NCBI GenBank assembly: GCA_026390435.1
Contig: JAPLFY010000100.1
Coordinates: 1 to 64,000, forward strand
DNA: 64,000 bases
Source of the DNA: Pseudomonadota bacterium
GTDB taxonomy: Bacteria; Bdellovibrionota_B; Oligoflexia; Oligoflexales; CAIYRB01
Direction: 5' to 3'
Every line of letters begins with the position of its first letter. The first letter of the stretch is position 1. The position numbers and the translations under genes were made by a program. Of this stretch, positions 796-11,961 are shown one piece after another. The notes under the pieces were generated by a model. That model saw only the letters and a list, made by a program, of their open reading frames with translations. It was not told where the DNA came from and ran no database searches.

Positions 796-2233
796 TCACG
801 ACTCCTTCTGCACCAACCCATTCTCGACATCCTGAGCTGCTTTAAGACAAAGGTCTAAAAATAGATCGACGTCTTTCGTCTCGGTATGAATACCGCCCAG
901 TGCTAAACGTAAAAACTTTTGCCCCTCAATCACTGAGGGATAGATCAAAAATTTCTGCCCGGAGTCACTCAAGTCTTCGATTCGTTTGATAAACAAATCA
1001 TTCTTGTTCAAATCATCGGAGGCAAGTCGAAAGCAGACGAGCCCTAAATCCGTCTTAACAATCTGCTTGAGTAGGCCCGATGCATCTATTTTCTTGCGAG
1101 CAGCATCGGCCTGGTCGATAGATATCCGCAGGAATTCCTGCAGACCTTGTCGGCCAAAGTAACTTAGCACCATCCAAATGCGCAGCGCTCTAAAGCGTCG
1201 TCCCAATGGGATCGACCAGTCTTTGAATTCGGGATTGTAGATCTGTTCTGCATCGGATCTGGCCATGTAGTCGCCGTCCGCCGCAAACACTCTTTTGAGT
1301 AACTGCCGATCCTTGATGAAAAGAAAGGCTGAGTCAACACCACAAAGAAACCATTTCGAGCCGTTAAAATTGAATGATGTCGCAATCTCTTGCATTAACA
1401 GAGAACGCTCGCGATATTCGGGTAGGATCAAGGCTGGGCCGGCGTAAGCTGCATCGACGTGGAGCCAAACCTTTTCTTGCTCACTGAAGCCGCGAAATGA
1501 GTTGAGGTCATCGTAGCCGCAGGTGTTAGTTGAGCCGTAATTAAGCTGCACTGCGCAGGGTTTTAGGCCATTTTTTCTGTCCTCGGCCATTGCTTGCCGC
1601 ACCTGGCTCGCAGTGATGCCGTAATTACCGTCGGCAAGTTTTTGCGCGGGAATCTTGTGTAGTCTCATGCCGGCGATGCGGACGGCTTTGGGACCGGAGA
1701 AATGACTCTGGTCTGACATGTAAACTACGAGTGAGGAAGAATCCTGCCAGTACCTTGTGGCGAAAGGAAGATTCTTTAGGCGCATGGAGTAGGTCAAGTA
1801 GCCAGTCCATGATGACGCATTCTAGTTCTGTCGCTGCTGGATTAGCGCTCCACTGCAGACCTACTGATCCTAGTGACGCAATGAGTAGTTCACTTACTAT
1901 GGCGGGTATGGAGGTGGCAGCAGGATAATAAGCAAAAAATCTCGGATGCTGCCAAAGAGTGACCGCAGGTAAGAGATTATTTTGAAAGATATTCAGCAGA
2001 GTCGCGATATCGCTCGGCTGATCGGGTGCATGCTCGGCAAATTTTGCAGCAACCGTGCCAGGCTCTATGTGCGGCTTGACGGGAGTATTTTCTATTTGGC
2101 TAAGGTGTGTCTCCAGTACGTCCACTGCGCCGAGTACAGCCGCACGTAGGCTCTGTGGATCGAGATGAAAATTTGCCCGAACATCTGGATGATTATCTGG
2201 GTGGATATTTGAAGTTCCTGAGGATTGGTTCAT
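796..2233 (-). pseudogene. Disrupted PLP-dependent (aromatic-L-amino-acid type) decarboxylase
   Basis: Two minus-strand frames together make a group II PLP decarboxylase. The N-terminal half (2233 to about 1760) has the family's WQHPRFFAYYPA and WLLDLLHAP stretches. The C-terminal half (about 1790 to 796) has LVVYMSDQSHFSGPKAV, the HVDAAYAG Asp motif and the SKWFL Lys that would carry PLP. The frames overlap out of register around 1625-1797. The glycine-rich substrate/PLP segment that normally lies between LLHAP and the SDQ(A/S)H motif is missing, so an internal deletion, not only a point frameshift, broke the gene. The rest of both halves is intact with no further stops, which suggests recent decay. 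In related enzymes the PLP lysine follows His; here it follows Ser. A short shared-frame product is unlikely to be active. Confidence 0.85.
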
Positions 2234-2460: not shown

Positions 2461-3456
2461 CTAAGAATCTCGCCTCGAATTTACAAACTCCAATCTCTGC
2501 CTATACCACTCGTTCCCCAATGCTCCCGCGGCAGCAAAGTTGTTATGCAGTCTGCACTTCAGTTGCAAGTTGCTCGCGGAATGTTCGCCGCCACGGCAAT
2601 ACAGATTGATATGATCTAACTCGATCATCATCTTTTCTTGGCAGCGAGATCCATCCGGATGCATGTGCGCACACTGCCCCTGATCTCGTAGCCAAACCTG
2701 ATGCCGCACGGCAGCAGGTATATACCTACCTGCAATGTTTTGTTGCTGCCGCGCGGCAGCGATAGTGGGGCCGTCGTGTGGGGACGCCACTGCGGCATTA
2801 TTATTCTCGAAAGTGTTCTCAACATTGTTGTTTCGGCCTCCCAGATCATCATCAAGATTTCGCTGCCGCGCGGCCGCGCGCTCGGCCTTGCGCATGAGAT
2901 CTCGTTTGGTGAGCAGGTCGCCCACGGCTTTCATAAAGATTTCCGCATCGGTTGGTGCGGAGCCAGCAGCAGCTAAAACTTCACGCGCCCTCTCGAGCAA
3001 GGCGAATTGTGATTTAGTCAGCGTAAGCTTTAACTCACAGATCTCTTCCTCAGGCAGCAGCTCACCATCCGGAGTGACGCGAGACATAAAAAGCTTAGCC
3101 TCTCTGAGGCTCTTTCCCTTGATATTTGCCAGCACGAGCTTGCGATTTGCACGCGTGATCTTGGCCGAGATCAGCGCCAAATGAGACAGCGAGATCTCGC
3201 CTGCTTCGAGCAAAGGCTTTGCTTCTGGTATGAACCTAAGGGTGCGAGCTGCTGCCGATCTCTTGAGGTACTGATCTTTGGTTAAAGCTATATGCCGGGC
3301 AAATTGCTCGACCGACATACCGCAGCTAGGAGCAGCGCGGCGAAGCTCAAGGTCACCGATGACTCGCAATGACCGCATTGTCAGGGATTTTTCTTCCCGG
3401 TGAATTTTTTGAGCTTCGGCGATTAATTGAAGTAACTGCTCGCGGAAAGTCATCAT
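2461..3456 (-). CDS. HNH endonuclease-domain protein (Bdellovibrio-type)
   Basis: About 331 residues. The N-terminal two thirds are helical and charged, with no recognised catalytic motif. An Asn-rich low-complexity linker (about residues 205-235) precedes a C-terminal HNH domain: YIPAAVRHQVWLRDQGQC, then IELDHINLYCRGG, then SNLQLKCRLHN. The DH pair and final HN are the metal/catalytic residues of the HNH fold, and the Cys pairs look like a zinc knuckle. Similar long HNH proteins are common in predatory Bdellovibrionota, which supports the taxonomic guess. I start at 3456 (ATGATG) because GGAG lies 7 bases upstream; an earlier in-frame start at 3504 has no such signal. Target and role are unknown; it could be a DNase or a domesticated homing-type nuclease. 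Confidence 0.8.
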   Translation of the reverse strand: MMTFREQLLQLIAEAQKIHREEKSLTMRSLRVIGDLELRRAAPSCGMSVEQFARHIALTKDQYLKRSAAARTLRFIPEAKPLLEAGEISLSHLALISAKITRANRKLVLANIKGKSLREAKLFMSRVTPDGELLPEEEICELKLTLTKSQFALLERAREVLAAAGSAPTDAEIFMKAVGDLLTKRDLMRKAERAAARQRNLDDDLGGRNNNVENTFENNNAAVASPHDGPTIAAARQQQNIAGRYIPAAVRHQVWLRDQGQCAHMHPDGSRCQEKMMIELDHINLYCRGGEHSASNLQLKCRLHNNFAAAGALGNEWYRQRLEFVNSRRDS

Positions 3457-3999
3457 AGGGCGGCTCCAACGCAAACATAAATTGCGGTTACACGACACTG
3501 ACAACAGTTATTTACCACGAGTTTTTAAGCGTGAATCGCGGCCGCCCTTGTCGATGCAAAATAAATAACCGCTCAGATCGCCAAAGGTCAAAACTACTAC
3601 GTTAAATTTTCGGCGGGATAGAAAAATTGGTCGACTATGGTTTTAGCGCAATAAATGCTCAGTTTGAGGCCCGTTAAAATGCGTCAAGCAAAATGAACAG
3701 TAACTTGCAGATGTCCGCAAAAGACCTGACGAGAGTGATTATGTCTAATCTCATGCCGCGCCGCAGCAAAGGTTGGCATGGTGAGTGTGGTGCCTAGGGT
3801 GAGGTCGAGGACTTAAACTTATTTGCAGAAGAAGGCAGAACAAAGGCTGCGGCACAAAGCAACGGCTCTCTCACCCCCAAAACCGGCCCTAACCACCTAA
3901 AACACCAAGCATAAAAAACAACTAAAGCTATTGTCTAAATAAGCCGAATGGTCCGATGAACAAGAAACGGACACCTTTCGTTTTGTCACTAGGCAAGCT
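3457..3999. other. Intergenic stretch upstream of the DGR target gene
   Basis: About 540 bases without a supportable gene. It separates the divergently transcribed HNH gene and the DGR target gene, so it must hold both promoters. I see no strong -35/-10 pair, no convincing RNA fold and no repeat. The part next to the target gene (about 3885-3960) is A-rich. The ribosome-binding site for the ATG at 4000 is weak (AGG at 3992-3994). Confidence 0.4.
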
Positions 4000-6900
4000 A
4001 TGGCCCTCAAGGAAACAAAAACTTGGACAACTCGAACGCTTAACGCGCTCAGGGCGACTCTTTTTTGGTGCGGAGTTGGCTTAGTGGGCAGTAGCGCGGC
4101 AGCGACTGTATCGTTAGCTGCTGCATTCCCGATGAATTACAGCGGACGATTAACCGAGTCCACCGGCGCTCCCGTCGACGGACCAGTTGACATCACGGTG
4201 AAGTTTTGGAACGCCGCGACCACCGGCAACACACTCACGGCGCCGATCGACTTTACAGCAGTCAGTCTAAACAGCGGCTTATTTACACTGCCCCTAGAAA
4301 TCAGCTCTGACCAAGTGCAGCAAATCTTTGGCGACGGTAGCGCACCTGTTTACATAGAAATCACCGCAGCGGGAAAAACTTATCCTCGCCAGCAGTATAG
4401 TTTCGTGCCACTGGCTTTGAGAATTCCGGTCGACACTAAAACGCTGACATTTGATGGCAACGGCAATCTTGGTCTGTCCGTGAGTGGCCTACCAGCAGCC
4501 AACCAGTTTTTAACCAAAGACGGCGGCGGTAAACTGGTGTGGGGGACTCCTGCTGCGACGACGCTGCAAGGGCAGAGCTTAGCTTCCGGCGCGCCCAGTT
4601 CTGGCCAGGTGCTGACCTACAACGGCAGTCAATGGGCGGCGCAAAGCCTGACCACACCATCGGGCGGAAGTATTGTCAGCCTTACAACCGACGTTACGGG
4701 CACACTACCCTTAGGTAGCGGCGGGACTGGCAATACAAATTTTACAGCCAATGCAGTGGTGCTTGGTAACGGTGCTGGTAATTTACTCAATACCAATGTT
4801 GGTAGCACGTACCAGGTCTTAGGTATTCGCAGTGGTAGCAATGTGCCGACCTTCGGAGCTCTCGATTTATCTCAGTCTGCTGCAGTGACCAATTTATTAA
4901 GTAGGGCCAACGGCGGTACCGGGATTAATTCCTCTGCAACGTACCCAAGCACAGGCGTGATCGTCACCGAAGATGCAAGCGAAACTCTCAGCAACAAAAC
5001 TCTAAGTGGTGCCACCATCAACGGCGCTTCCAGTATCGGCGGCTTAACTACGATTAATACCTCTGGCAGTCTTACTTCCGGTACTGCGACCATCGCAGGC
5101 AACGTCACGATTCAAGGCAGTGGCACGGCAGCGCGTAAGCTAGTCCTCAATGACGGCGGCAACAGCAAATTCTTGGCTCTGCAAGCTCCTGATACGGTAT
5201 CAGCGTCAACAACCTGGATCCTACCCGCTGCGGACGGAGCATCCGGCCAGGTGTTATCTACGAACGGGTCGGGCACTCTAAACTGGGCATCGGGAGTAGC
5301 ACCAATTGGCGTTGCAAGTGGTGATCTTAGTGGTAACTTCCCAAGTCCCACAGTTGCGACGGTCGGAGCATCGACTGCGGCGAATATTCATACGGCTGAA
5401 CTTGCTACCAATGCTGCGACTGACGCGAACACTGCATCCAAAATTGTAAAACGCGATGCTTCGGGCAACTTCAGCGCCGGAACGATCAGCGCTAATTTAA
5501 CTGGTAACGTGACCGGTAATGTGACTGGCAACCTCAGCGGCAATGCGGCCACAGCAACCTCGGCGACGTCATTTACTGGCTCCCTTGCCGGCGACGTCAC
5601 TGGGACTCAAAGCGCAAGCATAGTCTCTAATGTCGGCGGCGTCACCGCGGCCAACGTTGCGGCCGGCGCCAACTTAGCCAACGGGGCCGTGAGCACCAAC
5701 ACGACATCGAAATTAGTGGCTCGCGACGCCTCCGGCAACTTTAGCGCTGGAACGATCACCGCTAATCTAGCCGGAAACGTGACGGGTAATGTGACAGGCA
5801 ATGTCTCGGGAACGGCGAGTAACGTCACCGGCACAGTCGCCGTGGCCAACGGCGGTACTGGGTCCACGACGTTTAACCTTAACGGCGTGATTCTGGGCAA
5901 TGCTGCCGGCAACTTAGTATCAACGGCAAGCCCGAATGCAGACCAAGTGTTAAGGGTGCCGAGTGCTGGCGGGCAGCCGTCTTTCGGTGCTATTGACCTA
6001 ACAAAACCAGCCTCCGTCGCCGGCATCTTGCCTAAAGCAAACGGCGGTACTGGAGTTAACTCCTCAGCAACGTATCCAAGCTCAGGTGTGATCGTCACCG
6101 AAGACGCCAGCGAAACTCTTAGCAACAAAACTCTGAGTAGTGCCACCATCAACGGTGCGTCCATTATCGGTGGATCCACGACCATTAACACAACGAGCAG
6201 CCTTAACTCTGGTGCCGCAACCATCGCGGGCAACGTCACCATTCAAGGCAGTGGCACGGCGGCACGCAAACTTTTACTCAACGACGGTAGCAACAGCAAA
6301 TTCTTGGCTCTGCAAGCTCCTGACACAGTATCAACGTCAACGACCTGGATCTTACCACCGGCAGACGGGTCCGCCGGCCAGGTGCTCGCTACCAACGGCT
6401 CGGGCACATTGAGCTGGGCATCGGGATTAGCACCAACTGGAACTGCGAGTGGGGATCTCAGTGGTAACTTCCCAAACCCGACAGTTGCGACGGTCGGAGC
6501 ATCAACCGCGGCGAATATTCATACGGCTGAACTTGCTGCCAATGCTGCGACTGACGCGAATACTGCATCCAAAATTGTAAAACGCGATGCTTCGGGCAAC
6601 TTCAGTGCGGGGACCATCACCGCTAATTTAACTGGGAACGTGACCGGTAATGTGACCGGTAACCTCAGCGGCAACGCGGCCACAGCAATCTCGGCGACGT
6701 CGTTTACCGGACCTCTCGCTGGCGACGTCACCGGGACTCAAAGCGCAAGCGTAGTCTCTAATGTCGGCGGCGTCACAGCGAGCAACATCGCGACCGGCGC
6801 AACATTAGCCAATGGCGCCGTGAGTACTAACACCGCTTCGGCACTAGTGGCCCGCGACACCTTAGGCAACTTTAGTGCCGGCACAATCACAGCAAATTTA

Positions 6901-8946
6901 ACTGGTACCGCGTCTAATGCGACCACGGCCGTATCTTTCACCGGATCTCTTGCCGGTGATGTCAGCGGCTCCCAAGGCGCAACTGTGGTGAGCAGCGTCG
7001 GTGGATCGTCGGCAGCAAGTGTGCATGCTGCAGACATCGCAGTTACCACGGCAAGCCCATCAAACGGTGGACTTACGATCATAAAACGCGACAGCAACGG
7101 CGGCTTTAGCAGCGGTCAAATTAGTGCGGCGACTCCCAACGCCGCGAGTCAAGGAGTTGTCGTTATAGGTGCCGCGAGTCAGACGGCCAATTTACAAGAG
7201 TGGCAGAACAGCAGCGGCACCGCACTCTCGGCGATTGATGCTGGCGGTAATTTAAAACTAAAAGACAACGACGGCACCGACAACTACCTCGCGCTGCGCG
7301 CAAATCCAACGATGGCGGCGAATCTCACGTACACGCTACCAGGTAGTGTGACCTCTGGCGCGTACCTAACTACTGATGCCTCAGGCAACTTGTCGTGGGG
7401 CAGCCCTAACAGCTTCAGCGGCTCGCTCGCTGGCGATGTCACCGGCACACAAGGAGCCACCGTTGTTGCGACGGTTGGCGGCGTTACGGCGGCCAACGTT
7501 GCGGCGGGCGCAGCCTTAGCCAACGGTGCCGTGAGCACCAACACGGCATCGAAATTAGTGGCTCGCGACGCCTCCGGCAATTTCAGCGCCGGCACGATCA
7601 CGGCTAATTTAACTGGGAACGTAACGGGTAGCGTGACGGGCAACGTCACTGGAACTGCAGCTAACGTCACCGGCACCGTCGCCGTGGCCAACGGCGGTAC
7701 TGGCGTCACCACTAGCACTGGGACTGGTAGCGTCGTGCTCTCAAATAGTCCAACTTTGGTCGCACCAGCCCTCGGTACACCGGCCAGTGGCGTGGCCACC
7801 AACCTAACAGGTCTGCCCTTAACTACCGGCATCACCGGCACACTCGGCGTAGCTAATGGCGGTACGGGGACGACTGCGACCCCTACTAACGGTCAGCTCC
7901 ATATCGGCAATGGGTCAAGCCTTAGCTTAGCCACTCTTACATCCGGAACCAACGGCGGCGTGACCGTCACCAACGGCAGCGGTGCCATCACTCTGGATAC
8001 GCCGCAGGACCTACGCACCACGGGCTCGCCGACCTTCGTCACGATCAAAGCGACCACCGCTATTCAATTTCCAGACGGTACAACCCAGACCACCGCCGCG
8101 GTAAGCTCGTCCTGTCGCACAGGCTATACGATGGTGCCCGCCGATCCGAACAGCGTTTTCAGCTTCAAGCCGTTCTGTGTCATGAAGTATGCGGCCTCGC
8201 AAGACCCCACCACCAAGACCGCCACCGCCGTGGCCGCCAACGTCCCCTGGGCTAGCCTTACCTGGTATGAGGCCAAAGATCAGTGTCAACGTGTCGGTGC
8301 CCATCTCGTGACCGAGGGCGAATGGATGACCATTGCTCGCAATATTGAGGCGACGGCGATCAATGATATCGACTCCGCGACGGGGTTACAGCTAGCGACT
8401 GGGCACAGCGACAACGGCCCAGCAAACTCGCTCGCTGCCGCCGCCGATCCTTCGCTAGCCAGCTGCACGCTTACCGTTCCACTCTCTGATGCCACCAACA
8501 GTTCCTGTGCGCTCCGCACAGAAGCCGGTCCGTACTCTGGCACCGGCCAGTCGTGGGCTACGGCCTACGCAGCGGGCGCTGCGAACAAATCGCAGATGCG
8601 CACCTTTGTCCTAAGTAACGGCAACATCGTCTGGGACATGGCTGGCAACGTATGGCAATGGACGGATATGCAATGCGGCACCACTGCCTGGCCAAACAGC
8701 GCGGCATGGTGGGACTGGAACAATGCGTCGCTCACCTCTGCCAAACTGTTTGCTGGCCCAATTGGTTCAGAGATCGGAACAGGAGGCGCAGGTCGGTATT
8801 ATGGGTGCACCGCGATTGGCAATGCCATGCTGCGCGGCGGTAACTGGTACGATGGTGCGTACGACGGAGTGTTCGCTGCCAATCTGAGCGGTGCGCCGTC
8901 GTACGTGAGCGCGAGCATTGGGTTCCGTTGCGCCTACGCCCCGTAG
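4000..8946 (+). CDS. DGR target: large exported repeat protein with C-terminal FGE/C-type-lectin-like variable domain
   Basis: 1648 residues. Residues about 1-43 look like an export signal (basic start, hydrophobic core, Ala-rich end). Residues about 45-150 form a compact domain beginning MNYSGRLTESTGAPVDG. Residues about 170-1360 are low-complexity Gly/Thr/Asn/Ala repeats of the tail-fibre/surface-adhesin kind (VANGGTG, GNFSAGTI, LAGDVTGTQ), including a duplicated 377-residue block. Residues about 1370-1648 are a cysteine-containing domain with the features of the formylglycine-generating-enzyme-like C-type lectin fold used by DGR targets: LVTEGEWMTIARN, WDMAGNVWQWTD, MLRGGNW and a closing IGFRC. 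VR occupies residues 1609-1645. The natural role is presumably a surface or secreted binder with a tunable tip; the ligand is unknown. The start at 4000 is the earliest in-frame one, with a weak ribosome-binding site. Confidence 0.92.
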   Translation: MALKETKTWTTRTLNALRATLFWCGVGLVGSSAAATVSLAAAFPMNYSGRLTESTGAPVDGPVDITVKFWNAATTGNTLTAPIDFTAVSLNSGLFTLPLEISSDQVQQIFGDGSAPVYIEITAAGKTYPRQQYSFVPLALRIPVDTKTLTFDGNGNLGLSVSGLPAANQFLTKDGGGKLVWGTPAATTLQGQSLASGAPSSGQVLTYNGSQWAAQSLTTPSGGSIVSLTTDVTGTLPLGSGGTGNTNFTANAVVLGNGAGNLLNTNVGSTYQVLGIRSGSNVPTFGALDLSQSAAVTNLLSRANGGTGINSSATYPSTGVIVTEDASETLSNKTLSGATINGASSIGGLTTINTSGSLTSGTATIAGNVTIQGSGTAARKLVLNDGGNSKFLALQAPDTVSASTTWILPAADGASGQVLSTNGSGTLNWASGVAPIGVASGDLSGNFPSPTVATVGASTAANIHTAELATNAATDANTASKIVKRDASGNFSAGTISANLTGNVTGNVTGNLSGNAATATSATSFTGSLAGDVTGTQSASIVSNVGGVTAANVAAGANLANGAVSTNTTSKLVARDASGNFSAGTITANLAGNVTGNVTGNVSGTASNVTGTVAVANGGTGSTTFNLNGVILGNAAGNLVSTASPNADQVLRVPSAGGQPSFGAIDLTKPASVAGILPKANGGTGVNSSATYPSSGVIVTEDASETLSNKTLSSATINGASIIGGSTTINTTSSLNSGAATIAGNVTIQGSGTAARKLLLNDGSNSKFLALQAPDTVSTSTTWILPPADGSAGQVLATNGSGTLSWASGLAPTGTASGDLSGNFPNPTVATVGASTAANIHTAELAANAATDANTASKIVKRDASGNFSAGTITANLTGNVTGNVTGNLSGNAATAISATSFTGPLAGDVTGTQSASVVSNVGGVTASNIATGATLANGAVSTNTASALVARDTLGNFSAGTITANLTGTASNATTAVSFTGSLAGDVSGSQGATVVSSVGGSSAASVHAADIAVTTASPSNGGLTIIKRDSNGGFSSGQISAATPNAASQGVVVIGAASQTANLQEWQNSSGTALSAIDAGGNLKLKDNDGTDNYLALRANPTMAANLTYTLPGSVTSGAYLTTDASGNLSWGSPNSFSGSLAGDVTGTQGATVVATVGGVTAANVAAGAALANGAVSTNTASKLVARDASGNFSAGTITANLTGNVTGSVTGNVTGTAANVTGTVAVANGGTGVTTSTGTGSVVLSNSPTLVAPALGTPASGVATNLTGLPLTTGITGTLGVANGGTGTTATPTNGQLHIGNGSSLSLATLTSGTNGGVTVTNGSGAITLDTPQDLRTTGSPTFVTIKATTAIQFPDGTTQTTAAVSSSCRTGYTMVPADPNSVFSFKPFCVMKYAASQDPTTKTATAVAANVPWASLTWYEAKDQCQRVGAHLVTEGEWMTIARNIEATAINDIDSATGLQLATGHSDNGPANSLAAAADPSLASCTLTVPLSDATNSSCALRTEAGPYSGTGQSWATAYAAGAANKSQMRTFVLSNGNIVWDMAGNVWQWTDMQCGTTAWPNSAAWWDWNNASLTSAKLFAGPIGSEIGTGGAGRYYGCTAIGNAMLRGGNWYDGAYDGVFAANLSGAPSYVSASIGFRCAYAP
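4716..6906 (+). repeat. Two direct copies of a ~1.06-kb block at 1131-bp spacing inside the DGR target gene
   Basis: The stretch about 4716-5775 recurs at about 5847-6906 with a constant offset of 1131 bases (377 codons). Examples are the AACGTCAC motif at 5101 and 6232, and GCGAATATTC at 5380 and 6511. A shorter third relative (about 7411-7710) matches the end of the first copy. Third-position changes are spread through the copies, so the duplication is not brand new, but long identical runs remain. The repeats keep the reading frame and lengthen the stalk between the export signal and the variable tip. Confidence 0.85.
8824..8935 (+). repeat. DGR variable repeat (VR)
   Basis: 112 bases, codons 1609-1645 of the target protein. 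It is colinear with TR at 11447-11558 without gaps. The 10 differences, all at TR adenines, give nine changed residues relative to TR translation: N to Y three times, N to S three times, N to D, N to G and T to A. The first 24 bases and last 20 bases are identical to TR. The 3' invariant stretch (ending TTCCGTTGCGCCT) is where the initiation-of-mutagenic-homology function would be expected. Beyond 8935 similarity to the TR flank stops. Confidence 0.96.
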
Positions 8947-8950
8947 GGGC
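8938..8950 (+). promoter_or_regulatory. Small inverted repeat just after VR, overlapping the stop codon
   Basis: GCCCC-GTA-GGGGC: a perfect 5-bp stem with a 3-base loop, starting 2 bases after VR ends and including the TAG stop (8944-8946). In the Bordetella phage DGR a hairpin/cruciform a few bases downstream of VR promotes target recognition. The position fits, but the stem is shorter than the 7-10 bp reported there, so the assignment is tentative. Confidence 0.5.
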
Positions 8951-9060
8951 TGCTCTAGTCATTGGATCCTTGGTTATTGGTCATGAGTGCCTATGCTGAG
9001 GCTGATTCGGGGCAGATGGCTGATAAGCAGCGTCCTTTATTTGGGAGTGTGACGGAAATA

Positions 9061-9120
9061 AGTTCCGAAATTTCCGGAAATTTCTGGAAACCTTCGGAAG
9101 CTTCCGGAAACTTCCAGAAA
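9061..9120. repeat. Array 1: six tandem 10-bp palindromic units (consensus TTTCCGGAAA)
   Basis: Six consecutive 10-base units: AGTTCCGAAA, TTTCCGGAAA, TTTCTGGAAA, CCTTCGGAAG, CTTCCGGAAA, CTTCCAGAAA. Each is near-palindromic and the period is almost one helical turn, so all sites face the same side of DNA. It is preceded by TGGGAGTG..TGACGG, which also precedes array 2. It lies between VR and the HTH accessory gene, a natural place for an operator array or a DNA element used in retrohoming. Coding is unlikely. Confidence 0.85.
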
Positions 9121-9150
9121 TACCCAGCCGTCTGGGAGTGATTGACGGTC

Positions 9151-9184
9151 CAAATTTCGGAAATTTCCGGAAATTTCCGGAAAT
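9151..9184. repeat. Array 2: about three more units of the same 10-bp palindrome
   Basis: Units read CAAATTTCGG, AAATTTCCGG, AAATTTCCGG, AAAT, the same TTTCCGGAAA repeat with 10-base period. The lead-in TGGGAGTGATTGACGG (9133-9148) echoes the lead-in of array 1 (9043-9055), so the whole module, lead-in plus palindromes, appears duplicated about 90 bases apart. Confidence 0.8.
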
Positions 9185-9227
9185 CAGGCCTCTAGTGCAG
9201 AAATTAGCTGGTTATTGCCGAATTCCC

Positions 9228-9243
9228 TTCCGCAATTGCGGAA
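9228..9243. promoter_or_regulatory. Perfect 16-bp palindrome upstream of the HTH accessory gene
   Basis: TTCCGCAATTGCGGAA is perfectly self-complementary and shares the TTCC...GGAA arms of the 10-bp arrays but with a longer centre. It lies about 65 bases before the accessory gene start, a typical operator position. An inferred role is binding of the HTH protein encoded next; there is no direct evidence. The rest of 8947-9308 shows no gene. Confidence 0.55.
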
Positions 9244-9308
9244 ATATGGCTACATACTTTGTGCACCATACCCGCGCCTGCACAACTATCAACCCGTGGA
9301 CCTAGCCC

Positions 9309-10034
9309 TTGAACCAATCCGCCTCTCTTGATGCCGTTGAGATCACCGTCGACCAGGCAGCGACGCTGCTCGGCACTTCAGAACGTATGGTCCTCAACTA
9401 TATCAAGGCACGGCAGATCAAAGCAGCCAAGGTTGGGAAGCGCTGGTTTGTCGATCGGGCATCGATAGAGCAGTTTCGTAACACCGGCGGGCGAGGGGTA
9501 AGGGCCTTCCCACTTGGCAGCGAAAGTGTCGGTGCAACGTCGGGCGCAGGTTCGCCTAATAAAACTGCTGCGCTACCGCGCGAGCGCTCTGACGACAACT
9601 CTGAGGTGCTTAGCGAGGGCGAGCAGTCAACCAGGCAGCACCGACGCAAAGGCTCTGGTAAGACCGTCAAAGACCTTGCCTGCTACCGATTGGCCTTAGT
9701 CGCCTTCGAAAGACCACTATGGCAACGGGCCGAGGGTAACCCACATGCCGAGCGACTAGCTTCGCTGCGCCTGCAAATTCTTGAGCATCTGGGCGCAGGT
9801 TATTACTCCTTTGGCCCGGGCAAACACCACCACTATAACTGTGCGCGAAGCCTCGTAGGCTCGGCATTAGCCCTGATTTACAGCGATGACCAGGTCATGG
9901 TCCGTTTCCCCGACGACGTCGCCTATCTGGAGCAAGAGCTGCTCGTCGCCTTTGCCTCGCTCCTGCGCAAGATTGAGCGACTTGGCCGCAAAGACTCTAC
10001 GTCTTACCGTCAGGAAAGAGACTATGGCCACTAA
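9309..10034 (+). CDS. DGR accessory protein: excisionase/MerR-like HTH fused to an Avd/S23-like four-helix domain
   Basis: 241 residues from a TTG start. Residues about 10-57 are a helix-turn-helix of the excisionase/MerR-like kind (ITVDQAATLLGTSERMVLNY, then VGKRWFVDRASIEQF). A basic, Ser/Gly-rich linker follows (about 58-115). Residues about 118-232 begin KDLACYRLALVAFERPLW and continue as predicted helices, resembling the S23/Avd four-helix-bundle class whose members often open with a (K)DL-x-x-Y-x-LAL motif. Avd proteins are the usual DGR accessory factor that binds RT and TR RNA. An HTH fused to such a bundle suggests a DNA-binding version: a regulator, or a factor directing the complex to target DNA. 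The gene overlaps the next one by 11 bases. The TTG start has only a weak GTGGA upstream, but the complete HTH requires a start near here. Confidence 0.75.
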   Translation: MNQSASLDAVEITVDQAATLLGTSERMVLNYIKARQIKAAKVGKRWFVDRASIEQFRNTGGRGVRAFPLGSESVGATSGAGSPNKTAALPRERSDDNSEVLSEGEQSTRQHRRKGSGKTVKDLACYRLALVAFERPLWQRAEGNPHAERLASLRLQILEHLGAGYYSFGPGKHHHYNCARSLVGSALALIYSDDQVMVRFPDDVAYLEQELLVAFASLLRKIERLGRKDSTSYRQERDYGH

Positions 10035-10452
10035 CGATGCCAAGGTCCTGGTGGACAGCTATCAGTTGACCATGATGATTTTTAAAAAATCGCGCAGCTT
10101 TCCCAAACAGTACCGCCCGACTCTCGGCCGCAGACTAGAGGACGGTGCCATCAACCTCACGCTTGCCATTCGGGTGGCGGTTCTGGCGTCAGGCAAGGAC
10201 CGCTCGCCTCGTCGCGCGCGCTGCCTGGCCCAAGCGTCGGAGCACCTAGACGAAATCCGTATCCTTTTGCAACTGAGCCATGATTTAGAAATTTTAGTCA
10301 CGTCTGCCTATGGAGACTTGTGCGAGATGACCGCGACAGTAGGCCGTCAGCTAGGAGGGCTCAGCAGATTTCATCAGTATCACGGCAGAGCAGGCAGCGG
10401 CACGCCAACTGATGACACGTCACCTACCGGGGATGACCCTAGTGTTACTTGA
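10024..10452 (+). CDS. avd: Avd-like DGR accessory protein (four-helix bundle)
   Basis: 142 residues, basic and almost all helical. YQLTMMIFKKSRSFPKQYRP, followed by LGRRLEDGAINLTLAI, is the pattern of Avd/S23-type bundles (hydrophobic helix, FPK.., then a conserved LG.R.E..). Avd forms a pentamer that binds the RT and is needed for mutagenic cDNA synthesis in the Bordetella phage system. The ATG at 10024 has AGGAAAGAG just upstream; longer in-frame starts inside the previous gene are less likely. The Gly/Thr/Asp-rich tail (last ~25 residues) is encoded where the gene overlaps the RT start by 41 bases. With the HTH-fused neighbour, this cassette has two bundle-type accessory genes. Confidence 0.85.
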   Translation: MATNDAKVLVDSYQLTMMIFKKSRSFPKQYRPTLGRRLEDGAINLTLAIRVAVLASGKDRSPRRARCLAQASEHLDEIRILLQLSHDLEILVTSAYGDLCEMTATVGRQLGGLSRFHQYHGRAGSGTPTDDTSPTGDDPSVT

Positions 10453-11386
10453 ACAAATCAGCGCGTTTGAGAATCTGGTCCGGGCATTTGCCGAATGCGC
10501 CCGTGGCAAGCGGGCGTCGGTCGGCTACCAGCGCGCCATGTTTGCCCATGGTGAACGATTGCTGACGCTGCAAAATAAGCTGCGACTAGGCACCTACGTC
10601 TGGCAGCCGTACCGAGAAATCATCGTTAAAGACCCTAAAAAACGGCTGGTGATGGCGGCGCCTTTTATGGACCGCGTGGTGCATACGGCTATCCACCGCG
10701 TGATCGAGCCGATCTTTGAAACACACTTGCTACCCAGCGTTTATGCTTGTCGTAGGGGCCGAGGCAACCGCCTCGCTGCGCAGCATCTACTCGCCGTGTT
10801 GCAAAGAGTCGGCCCTAAACGGTTCGTTGTAAAACTCGACGTCAGACGCTACTTCGACTCCATTCCCCATGATCTGCTGCTCGAGAAAGTTTGCGCAATC
10901 TTGCCAGATCGGAGCCTAGATCTTTTGTTTGATTCGCTACTGCGCAGTCATCCGCTTTATGCCAACCGCGGCTACGGCATCCCGATCGGCAATCTTAGCT
11001 CGCAACTGTTTGCTAACTTTTACCTGACTGAGGCCGACGCCATAGCCACGGCTGGGCTTGGTGATGACGGATTTTATTTTCGCTATATGGACGACATGGT
11101 GCTGGGTGGCCCCGATAAACAGCGCGTCCTCGATGTCGCCGACCAAGTGGTCGGCTTCGTGACGAACCAGCTTAGGCTCGCTATTCCGTTTACTAAACGC
11201 ATGCCGTTAGGCAACGCGCCGGTCCCCTTTTTAGGCTACCTGCTGGATCATACCGGGTACCGGATTTTGGCGCGCAACGGCCGGCGTCATAACAAGAGAA
11301 TGAATCGATTGAAAAAATTAGGCGCGCGGCCAAGTCAGCTTGCTTTACGAGAGTTGTCGTTCGCGGCTTTTGCGTGTTTGGTTTAG
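10412..11386 (+). CDS. DGR-type reverse transcriptase
   Basis: 324 residues. RT blocks in order: KLDVRRYFDSIPHDLL (141-156, catalytic Asp143); GIPIGNLSSQLFANFYL (189-205), carrying the IGxxxSQ variant of motif 4 typical of DGR RTs; FRYMDDMVL (223-231, catalytic Asp227/Asp228); and PFLGYLL (272-278, motif 7). No maturase or endonuclease domain follows, which separates it from group II intron RTs. In DGRs this enzyme copies TR RNA and misincorporates opposite adenines. The motif C variant is YMDD. The thumb after residue 280 is basic but short, ending soon after RELSFAAFACLV. A later ATG at 10433 is an alternative start. The gene is translationally linked to avd by overlap and followed 60 bases later by TR. 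Confidence 0.96.
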   Translation: MTRHLPGMTLVLLEQISAFENLVRAFAECARGKRASVGYQRAMFAHGERLLTLQNKLRLGTYVWQPYREIIVKDPKKRLVMAAPFMDRVVHTAIHRVIEPIFETHLLPSVYACRRGRGNRLAAQHLLAVLQRVGPKRFVVKLDVRRYFDSIPHDLLLEKVCAILPDRSLDLLFDSLLRSHPLYANRGYGIPIGNLSSQLFANFYLTEADAIATAGLGDDGFYFRYMDDMVLGGPDKQRVLDVADQVVGFVTNQLRLAIPFTKRMPLGNAPVPFLGYLLDHTGYRILARNGRRHNKRMNRLKKLGARPSQLALRELSFAAFACLV

Positions 11387-11446
11387 GTCTTGAACTCAAA
11401 AGTTGGTCATTCCATGGTCGCTCCTTGCTGTTTCCTTAATGCTAGC

Positions 11447-11558
11447 GCCATGCTGCGCGGCGGTAACTGGAACAATGGTGCGAACGACGGAGTGTTCGCT
11501 GCCAATCTGAACAATGCGCCGTCGAACGTGAACACGAACATTGGGTTCCGTTGCGCCT
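11447..11558 (+). repeat. DGR template repeat (TR), likely within a functional RNA
   Basis: 112 bases colinear with VR at 8824-8935. TR has 25 adenines; 10 differ in VR (7 to G, 3 to T). None of the 87 non-adenine positions differs. The adenines cluster as AAC/AAT codons (W-NN-GA-N-D... L-NN-APS-N-V-N-T-N), which by adenine mutation can give many amino acids but never a stop. The reading frame of TR matches the target frame, but the open frame around it has no lipobox, domain or credible ribosome-binding site, so it is read as RNA, not as a gene. TR lies downstream of RT on the same strand and presumably shares its transcript. Confidence 0.96.
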
Positions 11559-11701
11559 CGTTGTCGGTGGCAGCCGTGAGACTTGGGAAAGTGGCACCTG
11601 TTGCGTGTGGGAAGTCGAGGGCATACCAGGCTAATCTTGGACATGCCCGCGGCCACGCTGAGCCCCTGAGACTAAAAAGTCCCAAGGCACTGCGAGTTTG
11701 A

Positions 11702-11754
11702 GACCTGTGGCTGATCTGAGGTAGCGTTCATACCAGAGCGCTGCCTCAGAGGTC
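11702..11754 (+). ncRNA. Strong hairpin downstream of TR, possible 3' part of the TR RNA
   Basis: CTGAGGTAGCG (11716-11726) pairs with CGCTGCCTCAG (11739-11749) over 11 positions with one G-U, and GACCT (11702-11706) can pair with AGGTC (11750-11754) outside it. No T-run follows, so it is not a standard intrinsic terminator. About 145 bases after TR on the same strand, it could bound or stabilise the TR transcript. From here to 11961 I see only A/C-rich spacer and, presumably, the promoter of the next gene. Confidence 0.45.
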
Positions 11755-11961
11755 CGAAGTTTAGTCACTGCGAGGCTAGCGCATCGCCCACCACGTGCCT
11801 AAGTTGCTGTGGCACAAACTTTTATAGTCAAGACTTAGGCTTTAGTAAAAAGACTCAACCAACCACCAGGCTAAAGTTTCCCACCCCCGTCCCGATAAAA
11901 CTCTCACACAAGTATTGTGGCGAGAGCGTACGTCAATTTCGCGAAACACGGAGGTTTCGCC

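Follow-up and report, generated by a model that had tools for sequence, protein, structure and literature searches.

This locus raises two questions: whether a bacterial chromosome here carries a complete and active diversity-generating retroelement (DGR), and what an additional gene and a row of short palindromes are doing beside its variable repeat (VR). The window, meaning the whole stretch of DNA that was analyzed, covers positions 1 to 64,000 of contig JAPLFY010000100.1 (assembly GCA_026390435.1), and the element occupies positions 4000-11558, where a target gene, Avd, a DGR-clade reverse transcriptase (RT), and a template repeat (TR) lie on one strand. The DGR itself is of a known kind; the clade to which it belongs, which bears a gene for a helix-turn-helix (HTH) fusion protein, is a new variant. 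An initial annotation had described a complete single-strand cassette with VR in the target gene, the RT motifs IGNLSSQ and YMDD, Avd, TR, and overlapping accessory genes, all of which we found: the open reading frames (ORFs) at 9309-10034 and 10024-10452 overlap, and the RT gene overlaps the 3′ end of avd. That reading was sound for the DGR part and incomplete otherwise, having overlooked the HTH fusion gene, the palindrome array, and a spacer RNA. Because this first accessory gene, the array, and the RNA 3′ of TR had gone unread, we extend the unit past the end of TR, to about 11758. Its parts are as follows.

4000-8946, + strand: target gene, 1648 amino acids, with a signal-peptide-like N-terminus, a long repetitive fiber-like body, and a C-terminal FGE/C-type-lectin-like domain carrying VR
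8824-8935, + strand: VR, 112 nt, with 10 differences from TR, all at TR adenines
8938-8950, + strand: short inverted repeat (GCCCC-GTA-GGGGC) directly after VR that includes the stop codon; weak candidate DGR target hairpin
9063-9243, strand not assigned: array of TTCCGGAA-type palindromes at a spacing of mostly 9-10 bp, in clusters at 9063-9120, 9152-9184, and 9228-9243
9309-10034, + strand: HTH fusion gene; winged HTH_17 domain, excisionase/BldC-like, at residues ~11-60, then a linker and a four-helix domain at ~122-239
10024-10452, + strand: avd gene (PHROG Avd, 2.9e-12)
10412-11386, + strand: DGR RT with IPIGNLSSQ and YMDD
11447-11558, + strand: TR, 112 nt, with 25 adenines and AAC/AAT codons at variable sites
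11579-11758, + strand: conserved structured RNA with a 7-bp helix, CTTGGGA/TCCCAAG, and a long terminal hairpin ending GGTCCGAA

Copying from TR to VR

TR and VR align without gaps over 112 nt, and 10 of 10 mismatches fall at TR adenines, which make up 25 of the 112 positions (hypergeometric p = 6e-8). In seven cassettes of the same clade, the window included, all TR/VR mismatches (85/85) lie at TR adenines, read in VR as G (45), T (25), or C (15). In what follows, G numbers denote genomes, L numbers loci, and C numbers contigs within a genome (e.g., L028 is G003:C166). The nearest relative of the window cassette, L027, comes from a sister species of the same genus; its RT is 98% identical and its VR is independent, with 13 differences from the window VR, 12 of them at TR adenines. 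The two TRs are separated by a single difference, at position 108 (C to T), and the same T stands in the L027 VR; since the 13th VR change is therefore also present in the L027 TR and the rest are confined to adenines, copying continued after the species split. Co-conversion was also observed between two IMG/VR contigs, L109 and L110, whose TRs show 3 non-adenine differences, 3/3 of which are carried by the L109 VR. Between L107 and L110, the flanks have diverged by 7.3% and the VRs show 0 non-adenine differences over 92 sites (chance, ~1e-3). TR-to-VR information flow with adenine mutagenesis thus occurred after these lineages split, and the comparison between species supports DGR activity since the time when the host species parted from its sister. 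The suggestion in the initial annotation that the element may diversify now is supported at the level of comparisons between species, those of L027 and of L109/L110. VR differences at non-adenine positions only, which had been proposed there as a sign against a DGR, are not what the L027 comparison gave.

The VR differences could also be left over from the old activity of a DGR now dead, and decay of this kind has occurred in the genus: in a relative, G003, HTH, Avd, and target are gone, and what is left is RT, TR, and spacer RNA. Against a fossil in the window stand its ORFs, all of which are open, and the sister-species VRs, which differ at adenines with co-conversion, and we consider this explanation very improbable.

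The RT likewise belongs where a DGR would place it. A profile search, which the initial annotation had proposed, identified it as a reverse transcriptase in PHROG (5.9e-76), and its best solved relative is 8ub7 (2.2e-39), titled as the RT of a DGR ribonucleoprotein. Group II intron and retron clades had been put forward as alternative placements; the group_II_RT_mat model scores 95.9 bits against a cutoff of 300 and the retron model 34 against 235, and a maximum-likelihood tree of 86 rows puts the window RT on the DGR side (branch, 99/89). All 24 rows with a TR/VR pair, among them the nearest neighbors of the window RT, are on that side, with 0 among the 42 group-II-like rows; the tree has some long branches, and its deeper joins are unsure. 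One clade (100/100) unites the RTs of the window, L027, L028, L029/L030, L109/L110, G004, G027, and G050. Avd falls below curated cutoffs, both in NCBIfam (DivGenRetAVD, 8e-8) and in Pfam.

The spacer RNA 3′ of TR is kept in 9 of the 9 members examined. Consensus folding gave 25 pairs, 14 of them with compensatory changes on both sides, including 2 or 3 of the 7 in the CTTGGGA/TCCCAAG helix as well as pairs in the terminal hairpin; because the hairpin alignment is imperfect and the overall covariation term slightly unfavorable (+0.69), the hairpin counts need care. A covariance model of the RNA found matches in eight genomes of the class, and it matched a relic outside the model-building set, G033:C104, in which an RT fragment is joined to the spacer RNA (E = 1.9e-6). 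The RNA was not found at 55 other RT loci searched and has no Rfam match; no Rfam-type RNA family and no tRNA was annotated in the window. In BPP-1, RNA 3′ of TR recruits bRT-Avd and primes cDNA (complementary DNA) synthesis (PMC12875486), and the same role is therefore likely for the spacer RNA here.

The HTH fusion protein and the palindrome array

In the fusion protein, the HTH_17 domain alone was matched (1.5e-11); the linker that follows is unstructured, and the C-terminal domain, with no match in Pfam, NCBIfam, or PHROG, has a conserved motif of its own, LGAGYYSFG..K..HY..AR..GS, and 13 invariant residues across six distant members. An AlphaFold2 model from six sequences comprises a winged HTH and a four-helix domain, the latter with a predicted local distance difference test (pLDDT) score of ~80-90. 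Foldseek paired the N-terminal domain with Pukovnik Xis (probability 1.00), BldC (template modeling [TM] score ~0.8 by target), and RacA, and the best matches of the C-terminal domain included S23/IVP proteins and bAvd (2gsc, 2rld, 4dwl, and 8ub7/8ub8), with TM scores of 0.62-0.69 by target for bAvd chains (8ub8_C, 0.69; 4dwl_E, 0.67) at probabilities of 0.82-0.94. As modeled, the domain resembles Avd in fold without being a proven Avd, and homology with Avd is reasonably probable.

The HTH gene is confined to the RT clade described above. It was found in 7 of the 58 genomes of the class (the matches in G033 and one in G010 being HTH fragments) and in five IMG/VR contigs; outside the class, it was not found in ~325 genomes, 50,697 phage records, or 72,556 plasmids. 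Full copies precede avd and RT, and in G004 the avd-RT-TR part is inverted. In the decayed DGR of G003 (L028, 3114-4975), a transposase-like ORF takes the place of HTH and Avd. The IMG/VR contigs L107-L111 carry the same cassette, and the stretches fetched contain a lysozyme-like gene; no capsid or tail genes were seen in them, and we did not accept the viral label as proof of viral origin.

Between VR and the HTH gene lies the array, which in the window starts 118 nt 3′ of VR. We counted TTCCG/CGGAA half-sites in the 450 nt after VR and compared the counts with those in shuffled sequence. The window has 14 (shuffles: mean, 1.5; maximum, 5), and the other HTH cassettes have 10 (L027), 9 (L107), 9 (L109), 10 (L110), 23 (G004), 7 (G027), and 12 (G050), with shuffle means of 1.2-2.4 overall; array sites are present in each HTH-bearing cassette whose target is adjacent, and the weakest array is that of G027, whose 7 half-sites equal the shuffle maximum. 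At two loci where HTH is a fragment, the counts are 8 and 4. Three DGRs of this class that lack the HTH gene had counts of 0, 0, and 0, and the counts of 13 DGRs in other phyla ranged from 0 to 5. By eye, whole 10-bp units have been lost or gained between the L027 and window arrays. In L107, L109, and L110, the TTCCG-type repeat continues through the linker of the HTH gene (~+526 to +600 after VR), where it encodes SEISEISE peptides, and L163 in G027 retains the array and the initial codons of the HTH gene.

At up to one mismatch, the phased palindrome pair occurs only at this locus in the whole 4.28-Mb genome, and we rejected dispersed extragenic repeats on this ground; at 2 mismatches, it occurs at three places elsewhere, next to unrelated genes. 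Two rearranged loci bear on the side to which the array belongs. In G050 the array stays by VR (+201 to +379), and an inserted 1.7-kb gene lies ahead of the HTH gene, whose start is at +2278; L029 is an HTH-avd-RT-TR block with neither an adjacent target nor an array 5′ of HTH. These cases, only two in number, favor an array that belongs to the VR side.

In other DGRs, a hairpin with a 7- to 10-bp stem and a 4-nt GRNA loop follows shortly after VR (PMC3240598). That of the window has a 5-bp stem and a 3-nt GTA loop, and those of relatives are longer (8 bp with GTTA or GTA, 11 bp with GACA, and 7 bp with GCCC).

Possible roles at the homing site

From the sequence signature, we infer that copying would follow the mechanism established for BPP-1: the RT-Avd complex would bind the structured 3′ spacer of the TR RNA and copy TR with adenines misread, and the cDNA would then replace VR, so that up to ~15 residues would change in the tip of the large secreted target protein. 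The HTH fusion would bind the phased array, ~90-120 bp downstream of VR, as a cooperative oligomer, in the manner of excisionases and BldC, and its four-helix domain would contact Avd/RT and hold the retrohoming complex beside VR; such a tether would add to, or partly replace, the post-VR hairpin, which is short in the window and regular in several relatives. BldC and RdfS oligomerize on DNA with about one protomer per 9-10 bp (PMC5859096 and PMC11963761), a spacing that the array period of 9-10 bp fits, and judged from sequence it is rather probable that the HTH protein binds the array. An active chromosomal DGR whose HTH fusion tethers the RT-Avd complex via the array is, as an explanation of the whole, probable, if a little less so. 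Tethering as opposed to regulation only is possible, at somewhat less than even chances, and we are slightly more hesitant about the most specific proposal, in which a dedicated HTH-Avd fusion on a phased array would bring the RT-Avd-RNA complex to VR for DNA-tethered mutagenic retrohoming.

Several results weigh against a tether. The BPP-1 DGR homes without any such HTH protein or array; the half-sites here are palindromic, whereas BldC prefers plain direct repeats; and the position of most arrays, between target and HTH gene, is also where an operator would be expected. For the four-helix domain, the Avd match has non-significant Foldseek E-values (0.4-1.4), the score of an engineered ROP bundle is almost as high as that of bAvd, and a profile comparison with Avd (hhalign) gave no support, with a probability of 0.8%; because the E-values are about 1 and the profile comparison is without support, we call this domain Avd-like only in fold.

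The main rival to tethering is autoregulation, in which the array would be an operator upstream of an HTH-avd-RT-TR operon and the fusion protein would set DGR expression with no role at the homing site, its four-helix domain perhaps sensing free Avd or RT. HTH_17/BldC/Xis-type proteins are often regulators (PMC5859096), and the array is directly 5′ of the HTH gene in the window as in most relatives. The rearranged loci argue otherwise: the 1.7-kb gene of G050 parts array from HTH gene while the array remains by VR, the HTH gene of L029 has no array upstream, and G004 has its RT, Avd, and TR on the other strand, beyond the reach of an array-side promoter. A promoter-like match between array and HTH gene was not found on the + strand, which is a weak test. 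Autoregulation alone is a serious possibility but on balance doubtful, and it could be true together with tethering. An ordinary DGR is also conceivable, with the palindromes as unrelated extragenic repeats or spacers and the HTH gene as a recombination-directionality remnant, both hitchhiking; HTH domains of the excisionase type occur widely in mobile DNA, and some target copies have only HTH remnants beside them (G033:C136, G010:C648, and G027:C101). Hitchhikers would hardly be expected to co-occur and be kept across a clade with RT identity down to ~35-60%, to include a phased pair unique to one place in the genome, or to conserve 13 residues of a C-terminal domain among such distant members, and it is therefore unlikely that the fusion gene and array are mere passengers.

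The way in which the mutagenized cDNA locates VR and enters it still counts as incompletely understood (PMC12875486). A direct handle on the homing step is offered by this clade, in which a sequence-specific DNA-binding domain is joined to an Avd-like domain and likely sites lie beside VR. If tethering is true, the fusion would act as a target-recognition module made of protein, which other DGRs are not known to have, and would suggest a way to aim diversification at genes of choice. With covariation as its definition, the spacer RNA family allows incomplete or decayed clade members to be found without protein similarity. One more DGR accessory protein, without a Pfam family, is reportedly listed by Wu et al. 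2018 (NAR). The open-access papers searched, which do not include key subscription papers, yielded no description of an HTH-fused, Avd-like protein, or of such a protein with an array next to VR.

Surroundings, related elements, and known systems

The element is flanked by chromosomal housekeeping genes (scpA/B, rluB, alaS, valS, pgk, and tpiA, read from ORFs), and a prophage origin of the window was rejected because its neighbors are housekeeping genes. An HNH endonuclease-like ORF (2461-3504, - strand; match below cutoff) is located just upstream of the target gene. The FGE-sulfatase match of the window target is below cutoff (0.0015), and two homologous targets match the FGE/CLec family above it (4.1e-6 and 3.5e-7); the predicted structure of the target C-terminus, from a shallow alignment, has a pLDDT of 30. 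The description of this protein in the initial annotation as exported and fiber-like is partly supported, by a signal-peptide-like N-terminus and repeats seen by eye and by a weak PHROG match to a phage structural protein. About 20 matches to the target-type C-terminal domain are present in G027 alone (loci L159 and L161-L168), several in tandem; orphan targets in G027 and G010 were rejected as extra VRs, the copies being older and diverged at non-adenine sites.

The host genome holds two further RT loci. L194 (contig C21, 1019-4778) is a second, different DGR with an Lcl_C-domain target, an RT of >400 amino acids, and Avd, whose TR is on the strand opposite to VR and RT (best segment, 14/19 mismatches at TR A). 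A relative in the genus, L190 (G005:C400), shares this inverted layout, with TR at 3535-3673 (- strand) and VR at 1971-2109 (+ strand), and has 20/20 TR/VR mismatches at TR adenines. L195 (contig C85, 286-1593) encodes a third RT (RYVDD, IGSLTSQ) near small toxin-antitoxin-like genes, and no obvious TR/VR pair was seen in the stretch fetched.

Compared with known systems, the fusion protein has the predicted fold of the S23/IVP and bAvd superfamily in residues 122-239, with no detectable sequence-profile similarity and its own motif, and the fold of the BldC/RdfS/Xis family in residues 11-60, which here are joined to a four-helix domain in a protein that belongs to a DGR. The known DGR accessory proteins are Avd, HRDC, and MSL (PMC10053308); the two accessory genes here are likewise small genes in the RT operon, and one of them is an ordinary Avd. 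With the BPP-1 DGR, the cassette shares its RT (best solved match, at the 35% level), Avd, TR/VR differences confined to adenines, a VR located 3′-terminally in the target gene, a structured RNA 3′ of TR, and, in most relatives, a post-VR hairpin. It differs from BPP-1 in order (target-HTH fusion-avd-RT-TR, with TR 3′ of RT, as opposed to mtd-avd-TR-brt), in being a chromosomal host gene system, in its weak 5-bp/3-nt hairpin in the window, and in the extra HTH fusion protein and the palindrome array that follows VR.
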